DNA of 37,188 bases from Limnothrix sp. CACIAM 69d (GTDB taxonomy: Bacteria > Cyanobacteriota > Cyanobacteriia > CACIAM-69d), in contig MKGP02000008.1 of the NCBI GenBank assembly GCA_001913845.2, positions 1-37,188 on the forward strand. The letters run 5' to 3'. Under the pieces are notes generated by a model. The model was not told the origin of the DNA. It did no database searches and saw only the letters and a program-made list of their open reading frames with translations. Below, piece by piece: positions 10,155 through 32,430 of the stretch. Positions within the stretch are counted from its first letter, which is position 1. Each line of letters starts with the position of its first letter. Both the position numbers and the translations under genes were made by a program.

Positions 10155-11252
10155 ATGATGAATTCACTAATTATTGAAAAATTCAAACTATTCGATTACC
10201 TAGAAATCAAGAAACTCAGCCGAATTAATTTAATCGTCGGAAAAAACAATGTTGGAAAAAGTACTTTACTAGAAGCCCTAAAGCTTTATGCATCCAACGC
10301 CTCTGTCAATGAACTATTGGCAATTCTGGAAGACCGAGGCGAAATCTGGAAAAGTGAAGCATTCCCACTAGAGAAACAGTTAGCCGGTCACTTCCTCAGA
10401 AATTTATTTTTTGGTCGCAATATTCCTGATGTAGGAGCCAGAGGTATTGTGATTGGCCCTGCCGATCACCAAATTCGCATTTCTACGGCCTCCCGAAAAT
10501 ATACTCAAACAAAACTTGAATTTGGAGTTCCAACTCTTGACGATATCGAAGATCCTATAGAAGTAGTAACATTTCTATTTCTTGAGCAAAATAATAAACG
10601 ACAAACAATTCTCAGACTAGATCAGGGGCTTGCAGAAGCCCGAAGAAGATATCTCGCAAAAGTGTATTCTGCAGGGGAAGATGAAATCAACTATGCCCAT
10701 CAAAGTGTTTCAACTAAAAAGACATCTAGTCGAGTTCTAGACAACTTGTGGAATCTAAAGCGCTTGTCTTTGGGTGATGAGGTGATCAATGCACTGCAAC
10801 TTATTGATCATAAAATTTCCGGAATTACTTTCATTGACGACAATAGCTCTTCCCAAGAAAGAATTGGCTTAGTACAAATTGAGGGATCAGACGATCTCGT
10901 ACCCTTAAAAAGTATGGGAGATGGGATTAATCGACTCTTTGAAATTAGTGTGGCGCTGATTAATGCTCAAAATGGTTTGTTGCTGATTGATGAATTTGAA
11001 AATGGACTGCATTGGACAGTTCAGCCTCGTATTTGGGACATTATTTTTCAATTGGCAGAACGTCTTAATGTTCAGGTTTTTGCAACAACCCATAGTCGTG
11101 ATTGTGTGCAAGGCTTTGAGGCTGCATGGAAAAAGTATCCCAAGTTAGGATCCTACATTCGCCTAGATCAGAAAAATATAGGCATTCGAGCAACCGAATA
11201 TACACTCGAAACCTTGAGTGATTCTCTGGAAATGGATATTGAAACTCGGTAA
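10155..11252 (+). CDS. AAA/ABC-type ATPase, OLD-like (first gene of a pair)
   Basis: A 365-residue protein. Walker A is GKNNVGKST (residues 29-37), close to the N-terminus after a short strand (IIEKFKLFDYLEI). The ABC-like signature region is SMGDGINRL, Walker B is LLLIDE (275-280) followed by FENGLHW, and a switch histidine His313 lies in ATTHSRD. This is the AAA_15/AAA_21 architecture of OLD-family and AriA-like ATPases. It lacks a TOPRIM domain of its own; the next gene supplies a TOPRIM-like protein, so they probably act together. Codon use is AT-rich compared with purL, fitting acquired DNA. Confidence 0.8.
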   Translation: MMNSLIIEKFKLFDYLEIKKLSRINLIVGKNNVGKSTLLEALKLYASNASVNELLAILEDRGEIWKSEAFPLEKQLAGHFLRNLFFGRNIPDVGARGIVIGPADHQIRISTASRKYTQTKLEFGVPTLDDIEDPIEVVTFLFLEQNNKRQTILRLDQGLAEARRRYLAKVYSAGEDEINYAHQSVSTKKTSSRVLDNLWNLKRLSLGDEVINALQLIDHKISGITFIDDNSSSQERIGLVQIEGSDDLVPLKSMGDGINRLFEISVALINAQNGLLLIDEFENGLHWTVQPRIWDIIFQLAERLNVQVFATTHSRDCVQGFEAAWKKYPKLGSYIRLDQKNIGIRATEYTLETLSDSLEMDIETR

Positions 11253-11259
11253 TCGAAAA

Positions 11260-11934
11260 ATGCCCATCGTTTTTCAACAAGATCGAAAGAGAAATAAACA
11301 AAGAAATTGGTCACCCAAAGTTTTGCTAGTTGAAGGGCCCGATGATTGCCATGTCATTGCGAGCCTCAGTCAAGCCCATAAAATCCCTGATGTCTTTGAT
11401 ATTTGTGATTGTGGTGGATCACCGGAAGTGATTAAGCAGCTCAATGCACTGATTGCTCAATCAGATCCTCCCAAAATCATTGGAATTGTGATCGATGCTG
11501 ATGATCCGTCCTTGGATCAGAAATGGACTAGCATTCGAGACAAGCTACGGAACAATCATGGATATCAGCTTCCCATCAAACCTGTGGTTGAGGGCACTTT
11601 GATCAGGGGTAATAATGATCTCCCTGATCTAGGGTTTTGGTTGATGCCCAACAACCAAGTAACTGGCAAGTTAGAAAGCTTCTGTGCCGAATTAGCCGAT
11701 CCAGCTTCGCTAGCATTTTCAAAACATTGCGTTGCTGCGGCCCAAGAGCAAAACCTGACAACCTTCAAACCAGTTGACCTAGAAAAAGCGATTATCCATA
11801 CCTATTTAGCGTGGCAGGATGAGCCGGGATATCCCTTAGGGAAAGCAATTACGGCCCAATCGTTGCGCCCTGAGACTCCAATTGCTCGTGAATTTACGAA
11901 TTGGCTAACGCGCTTATTTGTCACCGATTCATAG
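11260..11934 (+). CDS. DUF3226-like TOPRIM protein (second gene of the pair)
   Basis: A 224-residue protein starting at ATG 11260, 8 bp after the ATPase stop. An upstream start at 11218 would overlap the ATPase gene by 35 bp. VLLVEGPDD carries Glu25 and IVIDADD carries Asp79 and Asp81, the E...DxD metal-binding set of TOPRIM folds. The remainder (LPDLGFWLMPNNQVTGKLESF, TYLAWQDEPGYPLGKAI) fits DUF3226. TOPRIM partners of OLD-type ATPases are nucleases in several antiphage systems. The nuclease role here is inferred. Confidence 0.75.
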   Translation: MPIVFQQDRKRNKQRNWSPKVLLVEGPDDCHVIASLSQAHKIPDVFDICDCGGSPEVIKQLNALIAQSDPPKIIGIVIDADDPSLDQKWTSIRDKLRNNHGYQLPIKPVVEGTLIRGNNDLPDLGFWLMPNNQVTGKLESFCAELADPASLAFSKHCVAAAQEQNLTTFKPVDLEKAIIHTYLAWQDEPGYPLGKAITAQSLRPETPIAREFTNWLTRLFVTDS

Positions 11935-12246: not shown

Positions 12247-13392
12247 ATGCCTCCAAGAAATTTCTGTGATATTGACTCAAAATATTATCTTTTCGGAAAA
12301 TCAGATACTCCTGAAGAGAAAGTTCGTCAATGGATGATCTTTGAACTGCTAGCGGTCTACAACGTGCCAGTTCAGGCAATTTCAATAGAGTCGCCTGTAA
12401 AAGTGGGTACGAGATCACATTATGCCGATATTCTCATTCTCAAGGAATATCGACCATGGGCTGTTATCGAGTGCAAGAGGCAGGAAGACAGTGATATATC
12501 TAGCGGAATTCAGCAGGCAGTAAGCTATGCCAGTTGCTTACAAGCAGAGTTTGCTGCTTTTACAAATGGCACAGATTGGCTAGTAAAACGCTTCCATGCT
12601 GGTCAATGGTTTTCAGTACCTGATTTTCCAAGTTATAGTGCCAGAAATCATTCTAGAGTTAAATTAAGACAATTATCTTCATCCTATAGAGGGCTTTTTC
12701 TGCTTGTGCGATGGATTCACCAACATTCAAGCAACTTAGAATCACGAGATTTTTTACTGACTGCTTTAGAAAGGTTTGCTGATCAACTACCCCTTATATT
12801 TGATAGCAATTCGATGCTTCTTTGGTCGAATTTTCTAGGCGATTTTATAAAATTTTTCAAGGAACCCGGGTGGAGTCGTTGCGAAAATTCATCAGGCTTT
12901 GCACAAAATGAAGAAGGATATAAAGGATTTGTCAGATTATTTATATCTTTAACTAGGTACTATGAAAAAATTGATATGAGATTCAATTTTGAATTTCTAA
13001 ATATTCCCGCTGTACGCCTCTCATCTTGCTGTAGTTCTTCCTTGGATGAAATACTTGACTCCTATCATCGTGATCCTGGTTTGATCGGAGAAATTTCTGA
13101 TCTTTTTACACTATATATCGATACGCTCAATAAGCGCTACGAAGATCTACCTGGTCTTGAGCCAATCCTGATTAAGTTAATCCATTACTTGACACGTCAT
13201 TTTTATTTTGAAATGTCCTGCGCACAGAAGATTCCTATTCCAAACGCCGACATCAAGCTAAATCTAATTTTAATAGAGTTGATAAAGTTTATCTTTGAAG
13301 ATCATTTTTGCGTTTCTATTCCATGTCTTCTTGAAGAAAAAGAGTCTGGGGACTGGGAATCAATCTATGAAGACTTAGGTGAAGAAATATAA
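12247..13392 (+). CDS. Stand-alone protein with HsdR N-terminal-type nuclease domain
   Basis: A 381-residue protein. Residues 20-110 match the N-terminal PD-(D/E)xK nuclease domain of type I restriction subunit HsdR: TPEEKVRQWMIFELL (Glu23/Glu24), then ADILIL (Asp61), then AVIECKRQ (Glu75, Lys77). Residues 120-381 are AT-rich in codon use, contain no helicase motif and are not recognised. No hsdM or hsdS gene is nearby. Similar lone HSDR_N proteins are common in accessory DNA and are of unknown function. DNA cleavage is an inference from intact active-site residues. Confidence 0.75.
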   Translation: MPPRNFCDIDSKYYLFGKSDTPEEKVRQWMIFELLAVYNVPVQAISIESPVKVGTRSHYADILILKEYRPWAVIECKRQEDSDISSGIQQAVSYASCLQAEFAAFTNGTDWLVKRFHAGQWFSVPDFPSYSARNHSRVKLRQLSSSYRGLFLLVRWIHQHSSNLESRDFLLTALERFADQLPLIFDSNSMLLWSNFLGDFIKFFKEPGWSRCENSSGFAQNEEGYKGFVRLFISLTRYYEKIDMRFNFEFLNIPAVRLSSCCSSSLDEILDSYHRDPGLIGEISDLFTLYIDTLNKRYEDLPGLEPILIKLIHYLTRHFYFEMSCAQKIPIPNADIKLNLILIELIKFIFEDHFCVSIPCLLEEKESGDWESIYEDLGEEI

Positions 13393-28795: not shown

Positions 28796-28930
28796 ATGAA
28801 ACAGCGTCATGCTGCTGCTAGGTCAACGGCTAAAACTGACTGGCTGGCCTACATCACCAAAATCTTAGCTTTCATCGGACTTTGGCAAGTCATTTCTAAC
28901 AGTGCCCAATTGCTGACCCATTGGTTTTGA
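28796..28930 (+). CDS. 44-residue membrane protein at the end of the cyanate operon
   Basis: A short ORF with a good ribosome site (AAGGAG, 28782-28787, 8 bases before ATG 28796). It starts 12 bp after the cynS stop codon TAA (28781-28783). The product has a basic N-terminus (MKQRHAAARSTAK), one hydrophobic helix (WLAYITKILAFIGLWQVI) and a short tail ending THWF. The spacing and Shine-Dalgarno argue that it is translated from the cyn transcript. It may be a small accessory of the transporter or CynS. I know no named family. Confidence 0.6.
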   Translation: MKQRHAAARSTAKTDWLAYITKILAFIGLWQVISNSAQLLTHWF

Positions 28931-28978: not shown

Positions 28979-29185
28979 TCAACTACAGTTAAACGATGCC
29001 TGTGAGGCGATGATTACTAGGAAGATTGCTTATACAGAAAGGCTTCTACTCGTTCCTCATTGATCAATCATAAAATCGATATTCCTAAACAGGGCGATCG
29101 GCTTGTAGTTTCTTCAACGTCCTTCCTGACCCTTGCTCCATGCCATCTCGACTAGCCTGTAACCAACTACATCAACAAAAATGCT

Positions 29186-31855
29186 TTATCGCATCCCTTT
29201 TTTGTTCATATTGAACCCATAAACGTAAAGGTCAGCGAAGCGATATCGCTCATCCTTGGGTCGCCACTCCGCCAGCCCGATCAACTTCAAGAGTTGCACA
29301 AACCGCTCAAAATCCGGCTCAACCTCTCGGGCAGAATTTTCCCAGCATTGTTGCAACTCTTCCGGTTGAAGTAAGGCATCTTTTCCTGATAAGGAATCAA
29401 AGAATGCTGAGAGATTGCCATATTCTTCACGCATTTCGTTACACCGCGCTCGTGAGGCTTCTACCAGTGCATCTGCCATAAAGCGGCTACGAAATAGGCG
29501 ATCTACTTGCAATTTAGGATCGTTTTTGTGTTGTAACTCTAATCTTTTCGCCTCAGTCAGTAGCACTACCAAGCTACGGGGATAGGTTGCGCCACTAGTA
29601 TCACTCAGGCGATCGTAGACCCAGCGATAGAGATATTTCCCACGCGATCCCAACCGAATGCGATCGCCCCACAAGATCTTCAAGGCTTCAACCAACGTCT
29701 CTTCTGTTGCTGAATCGGGATCAGGGATGGGAACAACTTGACTGACCAGAGCTTTAAACTTCTCTGATTGAATAACCTGACGATAAGCAAAGCGCAGTAG
29801 GTCAACTCGCTTCCACTCTAGTTTTATGGATCGACCGCGAAGATGACTTCTATTGTCAAAAATTAATCTTTCCCAAATATCTTCACGGAGAAAAATTTTA
29901 ATCCGAAGATTGGTTAACTCTTTGGCATCAAACTCTTGAACCAATTTAAGGAGTCCGATTAATGCATCACTGCGCAAGTTATTGGCTTCCGCCAAGTCTT
30001 GATCTAGATTGTCATAAAGCAGCCAAATTTTTTGGACCTGCTTCTTGAGATGGCTATTAATGTCTTTTAAGGCATCAAAAATCAATGGTCTTAGCTCGCG
30101 GCTTTCAGACCATTGAAGCAATAGCGCTTGATGCTCCGAGCCAAATTGGAGATTCTTTACGGTACTGAAGCCATCTTTTAGAGCTTTGTATTTATCTTTT
30201 CTAAGACTAGTCAAGGTCTGGTTATGATCAGACATAATTCTGAAGAGTGCATAGGCAGCCCAAAACCCCAACCAACTTGCCTGAGATGTACTTAAGTCAC
30301 CACGGATAAAATCAAATTCATTCTGAGTCAGACGACCAGAAGATAACATGCCGTGCCCTGAGAGAACGGTAATATTGTTCAAGCGATCAGTGAGTTTTTG
30401 AGCAATAGAAAAATGTTTCAAAAACAGGAAGTAGAGAGCTGTTTTGCCAGTTCCTTTTCGACCGGTAACTAAACAGACTTTATCATCTAGGAAATCATAG
30501 AAACTGGATGTCTTTTGAAAAATGTGACTGAGGTTGGTCTGTTCCTGGGCAGCATCAACATCCGAAAACCGGAGATCTTCAATGATCTTCCAGCGATCAC
30601 GTTGCAATTGAGTGGACACGGATGCACTGGAGCTTGAGTCTTTTAGGATTAAATTAGCGATCGGCTGATACCAATCCAAGACAGAATGAACTGGATAGTG
30701 GGGAGCGACTGCGATCGGCACGAGATATTCAATACAAATTAAGTCATCATTGCTGGCCAGATCTTCATCATTCAGATCGCCATTACTAGCTAGTGGAATA
30801 AACTGATTAATGATTTCATTCAGATCTAGTTGAATTGACTGAGCTATTTCTTTTGAGTCTAAATTAGGAATTGGCGAAAAGACAAAATTAATATTTTGCT
30901 TACCCAGTGAGCCAAGGGCTTGAACTAAGATTTTTGCCCCCTCTGCATTTTGAGCATTAGGAAATAATACCAAAATGGCAGAATCTGCTGCTTGAACTAG
31001 GGAAAAAGCACCCCATTGATTCAAGCCAGTTCGAGAATCTACTAAGATCAAATCTGGCTCAATCTGTTTTTTGATATCGCGGGTAAAGACATCCCACAGA
31101 GACTCATTGCCATTGACCCAAGCACTGGCCTTTAAGTCATCAACTTTTGCTAAATAATCGAGATCAAGTTTTCCTGTGGGAATAACAAAGAAACGACCAC
31201 CACGGGTATCACCCAATTGCTGATCTCGGTATTCCGCTAAAATATCGCCAATTTGAATCTCATAATCCGCTCCATCAGGCGCATAAGCCCGCTCATAGAA
31301 ATAATCAACAATGCCGACTTCTGGTAAGTCATCCAGATCCAACGCTTTACTCAGTCCTGGCGCTTCGATATCTAGATCAACTACGACAACTTTTTTGCCT
31401 TGTTTGACTAACAGCCAAGCTACGTGAATTAAGGCTGTAGTACGACCAACACCCCCTTTGAAGGAATAGAAAGCAACCGTGCGGGGCGATCGGAGCGATC
31501 GCTCTTGCACCTCACCGTGATTCTGGGGATTTTGCGCCCAAATGGCTAAGTCATGCCAAGTTCTGACCGATTGAGCGCGATCACTAATAGGCTTCTCTAT
31601 TTCCAGAACTTTTGCTTCATCTTGTGTATAGAGAGATAGGGAACCTGTTGGACTTTGAACAATTCCATTGACCTGAGCGCGTCGGTCAGCATAACTAATA
31701 CCGCGAAATTGATCACTGACAACTGTAATATTCAGTAGCCCAGAGGATGATCGATATAGATGAACCCAGTCCTTTGATGAGCCGGCAACAAATCGATCTC
31801 TTAGACGTTGGTAAATATTTTGAATATCCCAGGGGCTAAATGGTTGTTGGTTCAT
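29186..31855 (-). CDS. Double-ATPase protein: KGGVGR ParA-like domain plus Sll1717-like P-loop domain
   Basis: An 889-residue protein in three parts. Residues 1-75 contain LLNITVVSDQFRGISYADRR, which resembles the BolA signature (VVSD.F.G.S...R). Residues about 125-400 are a MinD/ParA-type domain with deviant Walker A FKGGVGRTT (132-140), VVVDLDIEAPG (158-166) and DSRTG (273-277). Residues about 425-889 start with LRFSDVDAAQEQTNLSHIF and a second Walker A GRKGTGKTA (465-473), like the cyanobacterial 'Sll1717 family' ATPases, followed by a long helical region (LLYDNLDQDL may be Walker B). It is encoded 21 bp after a HEPN-like gene. The function is unknown; a conflict or stress role is inferred from this pairing. 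Confidence 0.75.
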   Translation of the reverse strand: MNQQPFSPWDIQNIYQRLRDRFVAGSSKDWVHLYRSSSGLLNITVVSDQFRGISYADRRAQVNGIVQSPTGSLSLYTQDEAKVLEIEKPISDRAQSVRTWHDLAIWAQNPQNHGEVQERSLRSPRTVAFYSFKGGVGRTTALIHVAWLLVKQGKKVVVVDLDIEAPGLSKALDLDDLPEVGIVDYFYERAYAPDGADYEIQIGDILAEYRDQQLGDTRGGRFFVIPTGKLDLDYLAKVDDLKASAWVNGNESLWDVFTRDIKKQIEPDLILVDSRTGLNQWGAFSLVQAADSAILVLFPNAQNAEGAKILVQALGSLGKQNINFVFSPIPNLDSKEIAQSIQLDLNEIINQFIPLASNGDLNDEDLASNDDLICIEYLVPIAVAPHYPVHSVLDWYQPIANLILKDSSSSASVSTQLQRDRWKIIEDLRFSDVDAAQEQTNLSHIFQKTSSFYDFLDDKVCLVTGRKGTGKTALYFLFLKHFSIAQKLTDRLNNITVLSGHGMLSSGRLTQNEFDFIRGDLSTSQASWLGFWAAYALFRIMSDHNQTLTSLRKDKYKALKDGFSTVKNLQFGSEHQALLLQWSESRELRPLIFDALKDINSHLKKQVQKIWLLYDNLDQDLAEANNLRSDALIGLLKLVQEFDAKELTNLRIKIFLREDIWERLIFDNRSHLRGRSIKLEWKRVDLLRFAYRQVIQSEKFKALVSQVVPIPDPDSATEETLVEALKILWGDRIRLGSRGKYLYRWVYDRLSDTSGATYPRSLVVLLTEAKRLELQHKNDPKLQVDRLFRSRFMADALVEASRARCNEMREEYGNLSAFFDSLSGKDALLQPEELQQCWENSAREVEPDFERFVQLLKLIGLAEWRPKDERYRFADLYVYGFNMNKKGMR

Positions 31856-31876
31856 ACGAATTATTAATATGATGAA

Positions 31877-32341
31877 TTAGGGAGATGACAACAGTTGCTG
31901 ATCCAACCAAGTTTTAAAAATTTGATATTGGGTTTCCCAACCTTCATAATCTAATGCCTCTAAAGAACCACCATAGTAACGAAGATTAATAAATGAGTAT
32001 CCAGGTAAAGGATTCTGAATAGTAGCTAACGCATCTTGAATGTTCTCGTTATTCTCATCAGGTGCCTTTACCACTCCAAGCTTGTCCAGTTCATTCAGTG
32101 CCTGATGTAAGTCATGTCCAGGATTAAAAATATTGCAATGATGACTATGCTGATGCTTGGATTTCGGGTTTGGCTTCCAGTCCCGCTGCTTTTCGGGGAA
32201 ATGTCCGAGGATTAACGCTTTCAAACGACATTCAATAGCGATCCCACCCATATGCATTGATGCAATACGACGATCTCCCTTATCAAGAATGGACTGGTCT
32301 ATAGCGCGTTCTAGGTGGGCGCTTTCGTAATCTTCAATCAT
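31877..32341 (-). CDS. HEPN-like protein
   Basis: A 154-residue helical protein. GGIAIECRLKALILGHFPE (residues 32-50) and GHDLHQALNELDKLG (75-89) match the two core helices of HEPN-fold proteins, and LRYYGGSLEALDYEGW (120-135) fits the usual third element. A possible RNase-type R-x4-H lies at Arg25-His30, but it is not placed as in typical HEPN nucleases, so activity is open. A histidine-rich loop (SKHQHSHHC, 61-69) is unusual and could bind metal. It is the first gene of a two-gene unit with the double ATPase. Confidence 0.65.
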   Translation of the reverse strand: MIEDYESAHLERAIDQSILDKGDRRIASMHMGGIAIECRLKALILGHFPEKQRDWKPNPKSKHQHSHHCNIFNPGHDLHQALNELDKLGVVKAPDENNENIQDALATIQNPLPGYSFINLRYYGGSLEALDYEGWETQYQIFKTWLDQQLLSSP

Positions 32342-32362
32342 CAGCTTATCGCATACAACAGA

Positions 32363-32386
32363 GGGTAGACAGGTCGCTGTCTACCC
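32363..32386 (-). terminator. Strong hairpin between chlH and the HEPN gene
   Basis: GGGTAGACAG (32363-32372) pairs perfectly with CTGTCTACCC (32377-32386) around a four-base loop. On the minus strand it follows the chlH stop codon by about 45 bp and is followed by CTCTGTTGT, only moderately T-rich. It probably ends or protects the chlH transcript. Confidence 0.6.
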
Positions 32387-32430
32387 CCGAAGTCTATTCT
32401 AGCCGAGACTCACAATAGAGTCTACAGCGC

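Follow-up and report, generated by a model that had tools for sequence, protein, structure and literature searches.

A HEPN-fold protein encoded beside a fused double NTPase in Limnothrix sp. CACIAM 69d, most likely a one-chain variant of the candidate defence system PDC-M28

The PDC candidates derive from a guilt-by-embedding screen (Payne 2024, a preprint, as cited in PMC12988326), and validation is pending for most of those discussed in PMC12988326. PDC-M28 is represented in PADLOC-DB 2.0.0 by models of three components, M28A, M28B and M28C, and a literature search returned no published work naming PDC-M28, KGGVGR or Sll1717. Dyads of a HEPN gene and a gene for a ParA/Soj-type ATPase, including that of MAE_18760, were proposed as toxin-antitoxin pairs by Anantharaman (2013; PMC3710099). 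The same survey described AbiV and AF0298 (2hsb), in which the His of the HEPN motif is missing while the Arg is kept, and proposed a second conserved His, located in an insert between helices 2 and 3, as a possible alternative active site (PMC3710099). A HEPN toxin with a nucleotide-handling partner, a nucleotidyltransferase, makes up the MNT-HEPN toxin-antitoxin systems, and the anti-phage system Septu (PtuAB) combines an HNH nuclease with an SMC-like ATPase.

The locus described here lies in a stretch of 37,188 nucleotides from Limnothrix sp. CACIAM 69d (the window) and consists of two genes, A and BC. Homologues of all three PDC-M28 components are encoded together in it, with M28A matching A (2e-7) and M28B and M28C matching the two halves of BC (1e-37 and 7e-27); the gene order is that of the split forms, and among 64 relatives of A, 57 match one M28A model and 5 another. 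The window differs in that B and C form a single 889-residue chain with a BolA-like N-terminus, a difference that the existence of separate models need not make defining for PDC-M28. A-BC is thus, judged by these sequence matches, most likely a fused-chain variant of a catalogued candidate system, and the description of the unit as undescribed in an earlier note on this DNA does not stand, given the PADLOC-DB entries and the dyads proposed in 2013. Identity with the DefensePredictor system DS-41 is not claimed, since its model matches with only E 0.0047, far below the cut-off.

The MAE_18760 dyad likewise unites a HEPN gene with a ParA-type ATPase, but its HEPN protein belongs to another HEPN family and keeps the RX4-6H motif, and a second NTPase is not described there (PMC3710099); no MAE_18760-type match occurred among the Pfam families found in the relatives of A. 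With AbiV and AF0298 protein A shares the fold, an Arg without the motif His and an alternative His after helix 2, whereas no such NTPase partner is given for AbiV in the 2013 survey (PMC3710099). A HEPN chain of an MNT-HEPN system (7bxo) matches A with Z 7.5, but the partner of A is a double NTPase. Septu has the same two-gene layout of effector and ATPase and occupies the same chromosomal slot in a congener, although its proteins are unrelated to A and BC.

The gene pair and its surroundings

Both open reading frames lie on the minus strand, so that A is the upstream gene, and 21 bp separate it from BC; their lengths, their coordinates (Table 1) and this gap all agree with the earlier note. 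The pair also sits between metabolic operons as claimed there, with flanks that we take, from reading of the open reading frames, to be chlH upstream and the cynABDS cluster (the cyanate operon) downstream. At 42-43%, its GC content is below that of chlH (60%) and of the cyn genes (51%), and so is its third-position GC (37-39%, against 78% and 55-56%, respectively), values by which the pair looks foreign to the chromosome. An adjoining insertion sequence, to an end of which the earlier note had placed the unit close, was rejected because the spacer towards the cyn genes (403 bp) occurs only once in the genome and no inverted repeat was found in it.

The cyn-side spacer region also holds the truncated start of an ABC permease gene just after cynS (28797-28930, plus strand), and about 84 bp (28979-29062) are missing from a congeneric genome, G033. 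On the other side, the hairpin preceding A may be a chlH terminator or a leader element. Some 17 kb from A-BC, the window carries a second PADLOC candidate (10155-11934, plus strand), in which a gene for an AbiL-like ATPase (PDC-M38A, 9e-88) precedes one for a TOPRIM-like protein (PDC-M38B, 6e-54); next to this pair is an open reading frame (12247-13392, plus strand) with a restriction-subunit-like N-terminal part and weak MTase_I matches.

Table 1. Features of the A-BC unit, with positions in the window
Feature	Position	Strand	Basis
A: 154-aa HEPN-fold protein, PDC-M28A homologue, predicted effector	31877..32341	-	ORF, PADLOC model, AlphaFold and structure search
A Glu37 of the Ex3K motif (invariant E37, C38, K41)	32231..32233	-	alignment
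A His76, loop after helix 2, candidate alternative catalytic His	32114..32116	-	alignment, model, PMC3710099
A Arg121-Tyr122, invariant in 64/64; HEPN-motif R without following H	31976..31981	-	alignment
BC: 889-aa fused protein, PDC-M28B and PDC-M28C homologue	29186..31855	-	ORF, PADLOC models
BC residues 1-90, BolA-like N-terminal domain	31586..31855	-	hhalign, predicted secondary structure
BC residues 122-411, MinD/ParA-like (SIMIBI) domain, KGGVGR variant	30623..31492	-	NF047398 1.1e-48; MinD Z 23
KGGVGRT P-loop	31439..31459	-	Lys133 of the signature retained; Arg138 in place of the P-loop Lys in 41/41
BC residues 429-780, Sll1717-family P-loop NTPase (ORC/STAND-like)	29516..30571	-	NF047389 1.6e-41
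Walker A GRKGTGKT (465-472)	30440..30463	-	sequence, alignment
BC C-terminal region, predicted winged-helix-like element (831-878)	29189..29488	-	secondary-structure prediction
12-pair hairpin	32361..32388	-	between chlH stop and A start, 20 bp before A start; kept in G033 with changes

Domains and candidate active site

The A protein of the window matched no Pfam family by itself, and of two sequence profiles searched against the PDB the first returned nothing and the second unrelated noise only. Its relatives and its predicted structure are more telling: PF05168 (HEPN) matches 8 of 19 relatives (best 3.6e-8), and the AlphaFold model, built from 64 sequences with a pLDDT of 89, has as its best eight PDB chains in VIA-align exclusively HEPN structures (Z 7.2-10.0), followed by a next match with Z 4.8. 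Foldseek returned the same HEPN names with weak E-values, and a viral structure library yielded no reliable match to the model. The small protein is therefore HEPN by predicted fold, as the earlier note had supposed from the sequence and had proposed to check by structure prediction.

The canonical RX4-6H motif near the RY motif is absent from 62 of the 64 A relatives, so that any RNase activity of A would have to rest on an alternative site and A may not cut RNA. Five residues, E37, C38, K41, R121 and Y122, are invariant in all 64, and H76, which falls between the predicted helices 25-46 and 99-109 of the model, is conserved in 57 of 59 aligned residues, five sequences being gapped there. A conserved Arg, an Ex3K motif and a second His between helices 2 and 3, all present in A, are the sequence features of alternative-site HEPN proteins of the AbiV/AF0298 type; 2hsb is among the best structural matches of A (Z 9.0), and the AbiV model PF18728 matches two A relatives (best 0.0013). 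By analogy with this precedent, and with these matches, RNase activity of A through an alternative site is plausible, if unproven.

The absence of RX4-6H can also be read as marking A as a non-catalytic HEPN adaptor, in which case BC would itself be the effector or sensor; it might, for instance, bind foreign DNA via its winged helix and interfere with replication or partition via its ParA-like domain. That HEPN domains devoid of the motif can serve as binding modules (PMC3710099) and that BC has a MinD/ParA fold with Z 23 are in keeping with such a role, but the conservation of E37, K41, H76 and R121 while the remainder of A diverges is not, and we regard an adaptor function as quite improbable.

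Within BC, the KGGVGR (residues 133-138) and GRKGTGKT motifs named in the earlier note are both present and invariant in close relatives. Set against the deviant Walker A signature KGGxGK[ST] of ParA/MinD ATPases, the first of these goes with the expected fold and has K133, while the P-loop Lys is Arg in every one of 41 sequences. The second NTPase domain is ORC/STAND-like, and archaeal ORC2 (1w5t) appears in the Foldseek list for BC with E 9.5e-5. ParA/MinD folds took up the list of aligned structures for BC, which therefore says little about the N- and C-terminal parts of the protein. The C-terminal helix-strand-strand element is consistent, as a prediction, with a winged helix.

Residues 1-90 of BC match an alignment of cyanobacterial BolA-type proteins in hhalign with a probability of 91-93% (P 2.5e-7 at 93%), while Pfam BolA reaches only E 0.2; as controls, seven further segments of BC, the BolA profile in reverse and a HEPN profile all remained below 1%. 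The predicted order of elements, helix-strand-strand-helix-strand-helix, is in keeping with BolA topology. Similarity to BolA was not detected in the split-form B protein.

Pairing, spread and loss of the unit

Of 80 loci in the genomes of named organisms, 72 have A immediately upstream of BC and in the same orientation, with gaps of -64 to +208 bp, a regularity that makes the pairing more than chance and bears out the adjacency that the earlier note had proposed to look for. The other eight loci comprise two that start at a contig end, two with A and a broken BC, three with a decayed A, and one (L091) without a recognisable A. Separate B and C genes occur in L066, L134-L148, L153 and L154. 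They are neighbours in 11 virus contigs, which as a set contain terminase, portal and integrase genes, and A was detected before them in seven. A conjugative Enterobacter plasmid carries the three-gene form adjoining an integrase and a TIR protein (TIR-domain gene L153:12755-13558), and one cyanobacterium has a split three-gene unit (L066:4048-7367) about 2.2 kb from a fused copy. A tblastn search of fused BC against phage GenBank records gave no match, nor did a DNA search of the split-form unit against E. coli genomes.

Carriage of the split forms by a plasmid and prophages, together with the tight spacing or overlap of A and BC and the precedent of the HEPN-ParA/Soj dyad (PMC3710099), would suit an addiction pair, in which A is a HEPN toxin that BC neutralises, the pair stabilises the element carrying it, and any effect on phages is secondary. 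A BC of 889 residues with two NTPases is, however, far above the usual size of an antitoxin, and chromosomal copies of the unit are often lost or decayed; a toxin-antitoxin function accordingly seems unlikely to us.

Intact A-BC copies are under purifying selection, with dN/dS values between the window and G033 of 0.19 for A and 0.10 for BC. A and the BolA-like domain evolve faster than the other parts, but the divergence of the one shows no specific correlation with that of the other (partial r -0.07), and a special link between the two was dropped. It is the ParA-like domain whose divergence best accounts for that of A (partial r 0.47; 0 of 500 permutations), a correlation over 741 pairs that are not independent and hence a hint.

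BC relatives are present in 28 of 291 cyanobacterial genomes, in two of these only in the ParA-like part. A tree of 80 rows spans Cyanobacteriota, Pseudomonadota, Bacillota, Thermodesulfobacteriota and Chloroflexota; in it, three Spirulina/Oscillatoria rows are nested in a clade (support 97) made up mainly of Pseudomonadota, and one Chloroflexota row groups with the main cyanobacterial set, placements that suggest horizontal transfer but fall short of proof. Local comparisons add loss to this pattern. In Nostocaceae the preferred site of the unit is the one behind groEL; among 60 such sites inspected, eight hold intact units and three hold remnants (G072, G066, G410). Two genomes of a single genus differ there, in that a decayed unit separates groEL from ureD in G410 while ureD directly follows groEL in G374. 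The A-BC unit is patchy, probably horizontally spread, easily lost and often decayed.

At the site occupied in the window, the congener G033 has an intact A-BC, whereas the congener G354 retains only the last 47 codons of BC and has a Septu system (PtuA 1.7e-122, PtuB 2.4e-56) between this remnant and chlH. This replacement is a single case; as the anti-phage system of a sister species in the same spot, it adds to the reading of A-BC as most likely a one-chain version of PDC-M28. A piece comprising the same last 47-50 codons of BC remains in two unrelated slots, beside chlH in G354 and beside groEL in G072 (L237:3064-3203 and L241, oriented 457-609).

That the unit keeps its place next to groESL in many Nostocaceae and next to chlH in two congeners might point to a housekeeping or stress regulator unrelated to invaders, acting for example in chlorophyll or cyanate metabolism or in a GroESL response. 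Such a role is very improbable, as A-BC is found in fewer than one in ten of the sampled cyanobacteria and has other neighbours elsewhere, and as its foreign GC content, its prophage copies and the Septu replacement all speak against it. The neighbourhoods themselves show no clear enrichment in defence genes, for which the earlier note had suggested a search: at E 1e-15, 70 PADLOC families were counted in 149 open reading frames near loci of non-cyanobacterial type, against 54 in 144 control open reading frames of the same genomes, the matches in both sets being mostly single-protein or generic. In genomes lacking A-BC, the groEL slot contained toxin-antitoxin-like genes, two Cas12f-like proteins and generic matches, and is not clearly a defence hotspot; in Nostocaceae, A-BC is often stable beside groESL and outside defence islands.

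A proposed mechanism and its implications

The case for defence rests on membership in PDC-M28, carriage by prophages and a plasmid, patchiness and loss, and the one replacement by Septu. Taken together, these make it reasonably probable that A-BC is a fused PDC-M28 variant serving abortive-infection-type defence, in which the NTPase BC gates the HEPN effector A. The central idea of the earlier note, that of a conflict system in which a large NTPase controls a HEPN effector, is supported by near-universal adjacency, the HEPN fold and the presence of Septu in the slot of a sister genome.

In the gated mechanism that we favour, A would serve as the effector, a HEPN-fold protein that is probably an RNase relying on E37, K41, H76 and R121 in place of RX4-6H, and would be kept inactive by BC or docked on it. 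The MinD/ParA-like KGGVGR domain could contact A and work as a slow nucleotide switch, while the Sll1717/ORC-like NTPase and the winged helix would detect the invader or a signal of stress, and a docking or ligand module might be provided by the BolA-like N-terminus. Activation would free A to damage RNA or block translation, such that the infected cell would no longer support phage or plasmid. More tentatively, and with some doubt on our part, the unit may represent a distinct class of defence, in which a single chain with a BolA-like part, a MinD-like switch bearing the Arg substitution and a sensor of ORC/STAND type restrains an H76/R121 HEPN RNase, and which would be spread over at least five phyla and swapped at chromosomal slots with systems such as Septu.

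These comparisons take PDC-M28 from a database candidate to a specific and testable mechanism with named residues. They also reveal that its two NTPases are encoded separately in prophages and plasmids but commonly joined in one chain in cyanobacterial chromosomes and in other genomes. The replacement by Septu speaks, on independent and positional grounds, for a role in defence away from classical defence islands, and the A-BC unit bears on the suggestion made in 2013 that AbiV-type HEPN proteins with an alternative site are RNases.
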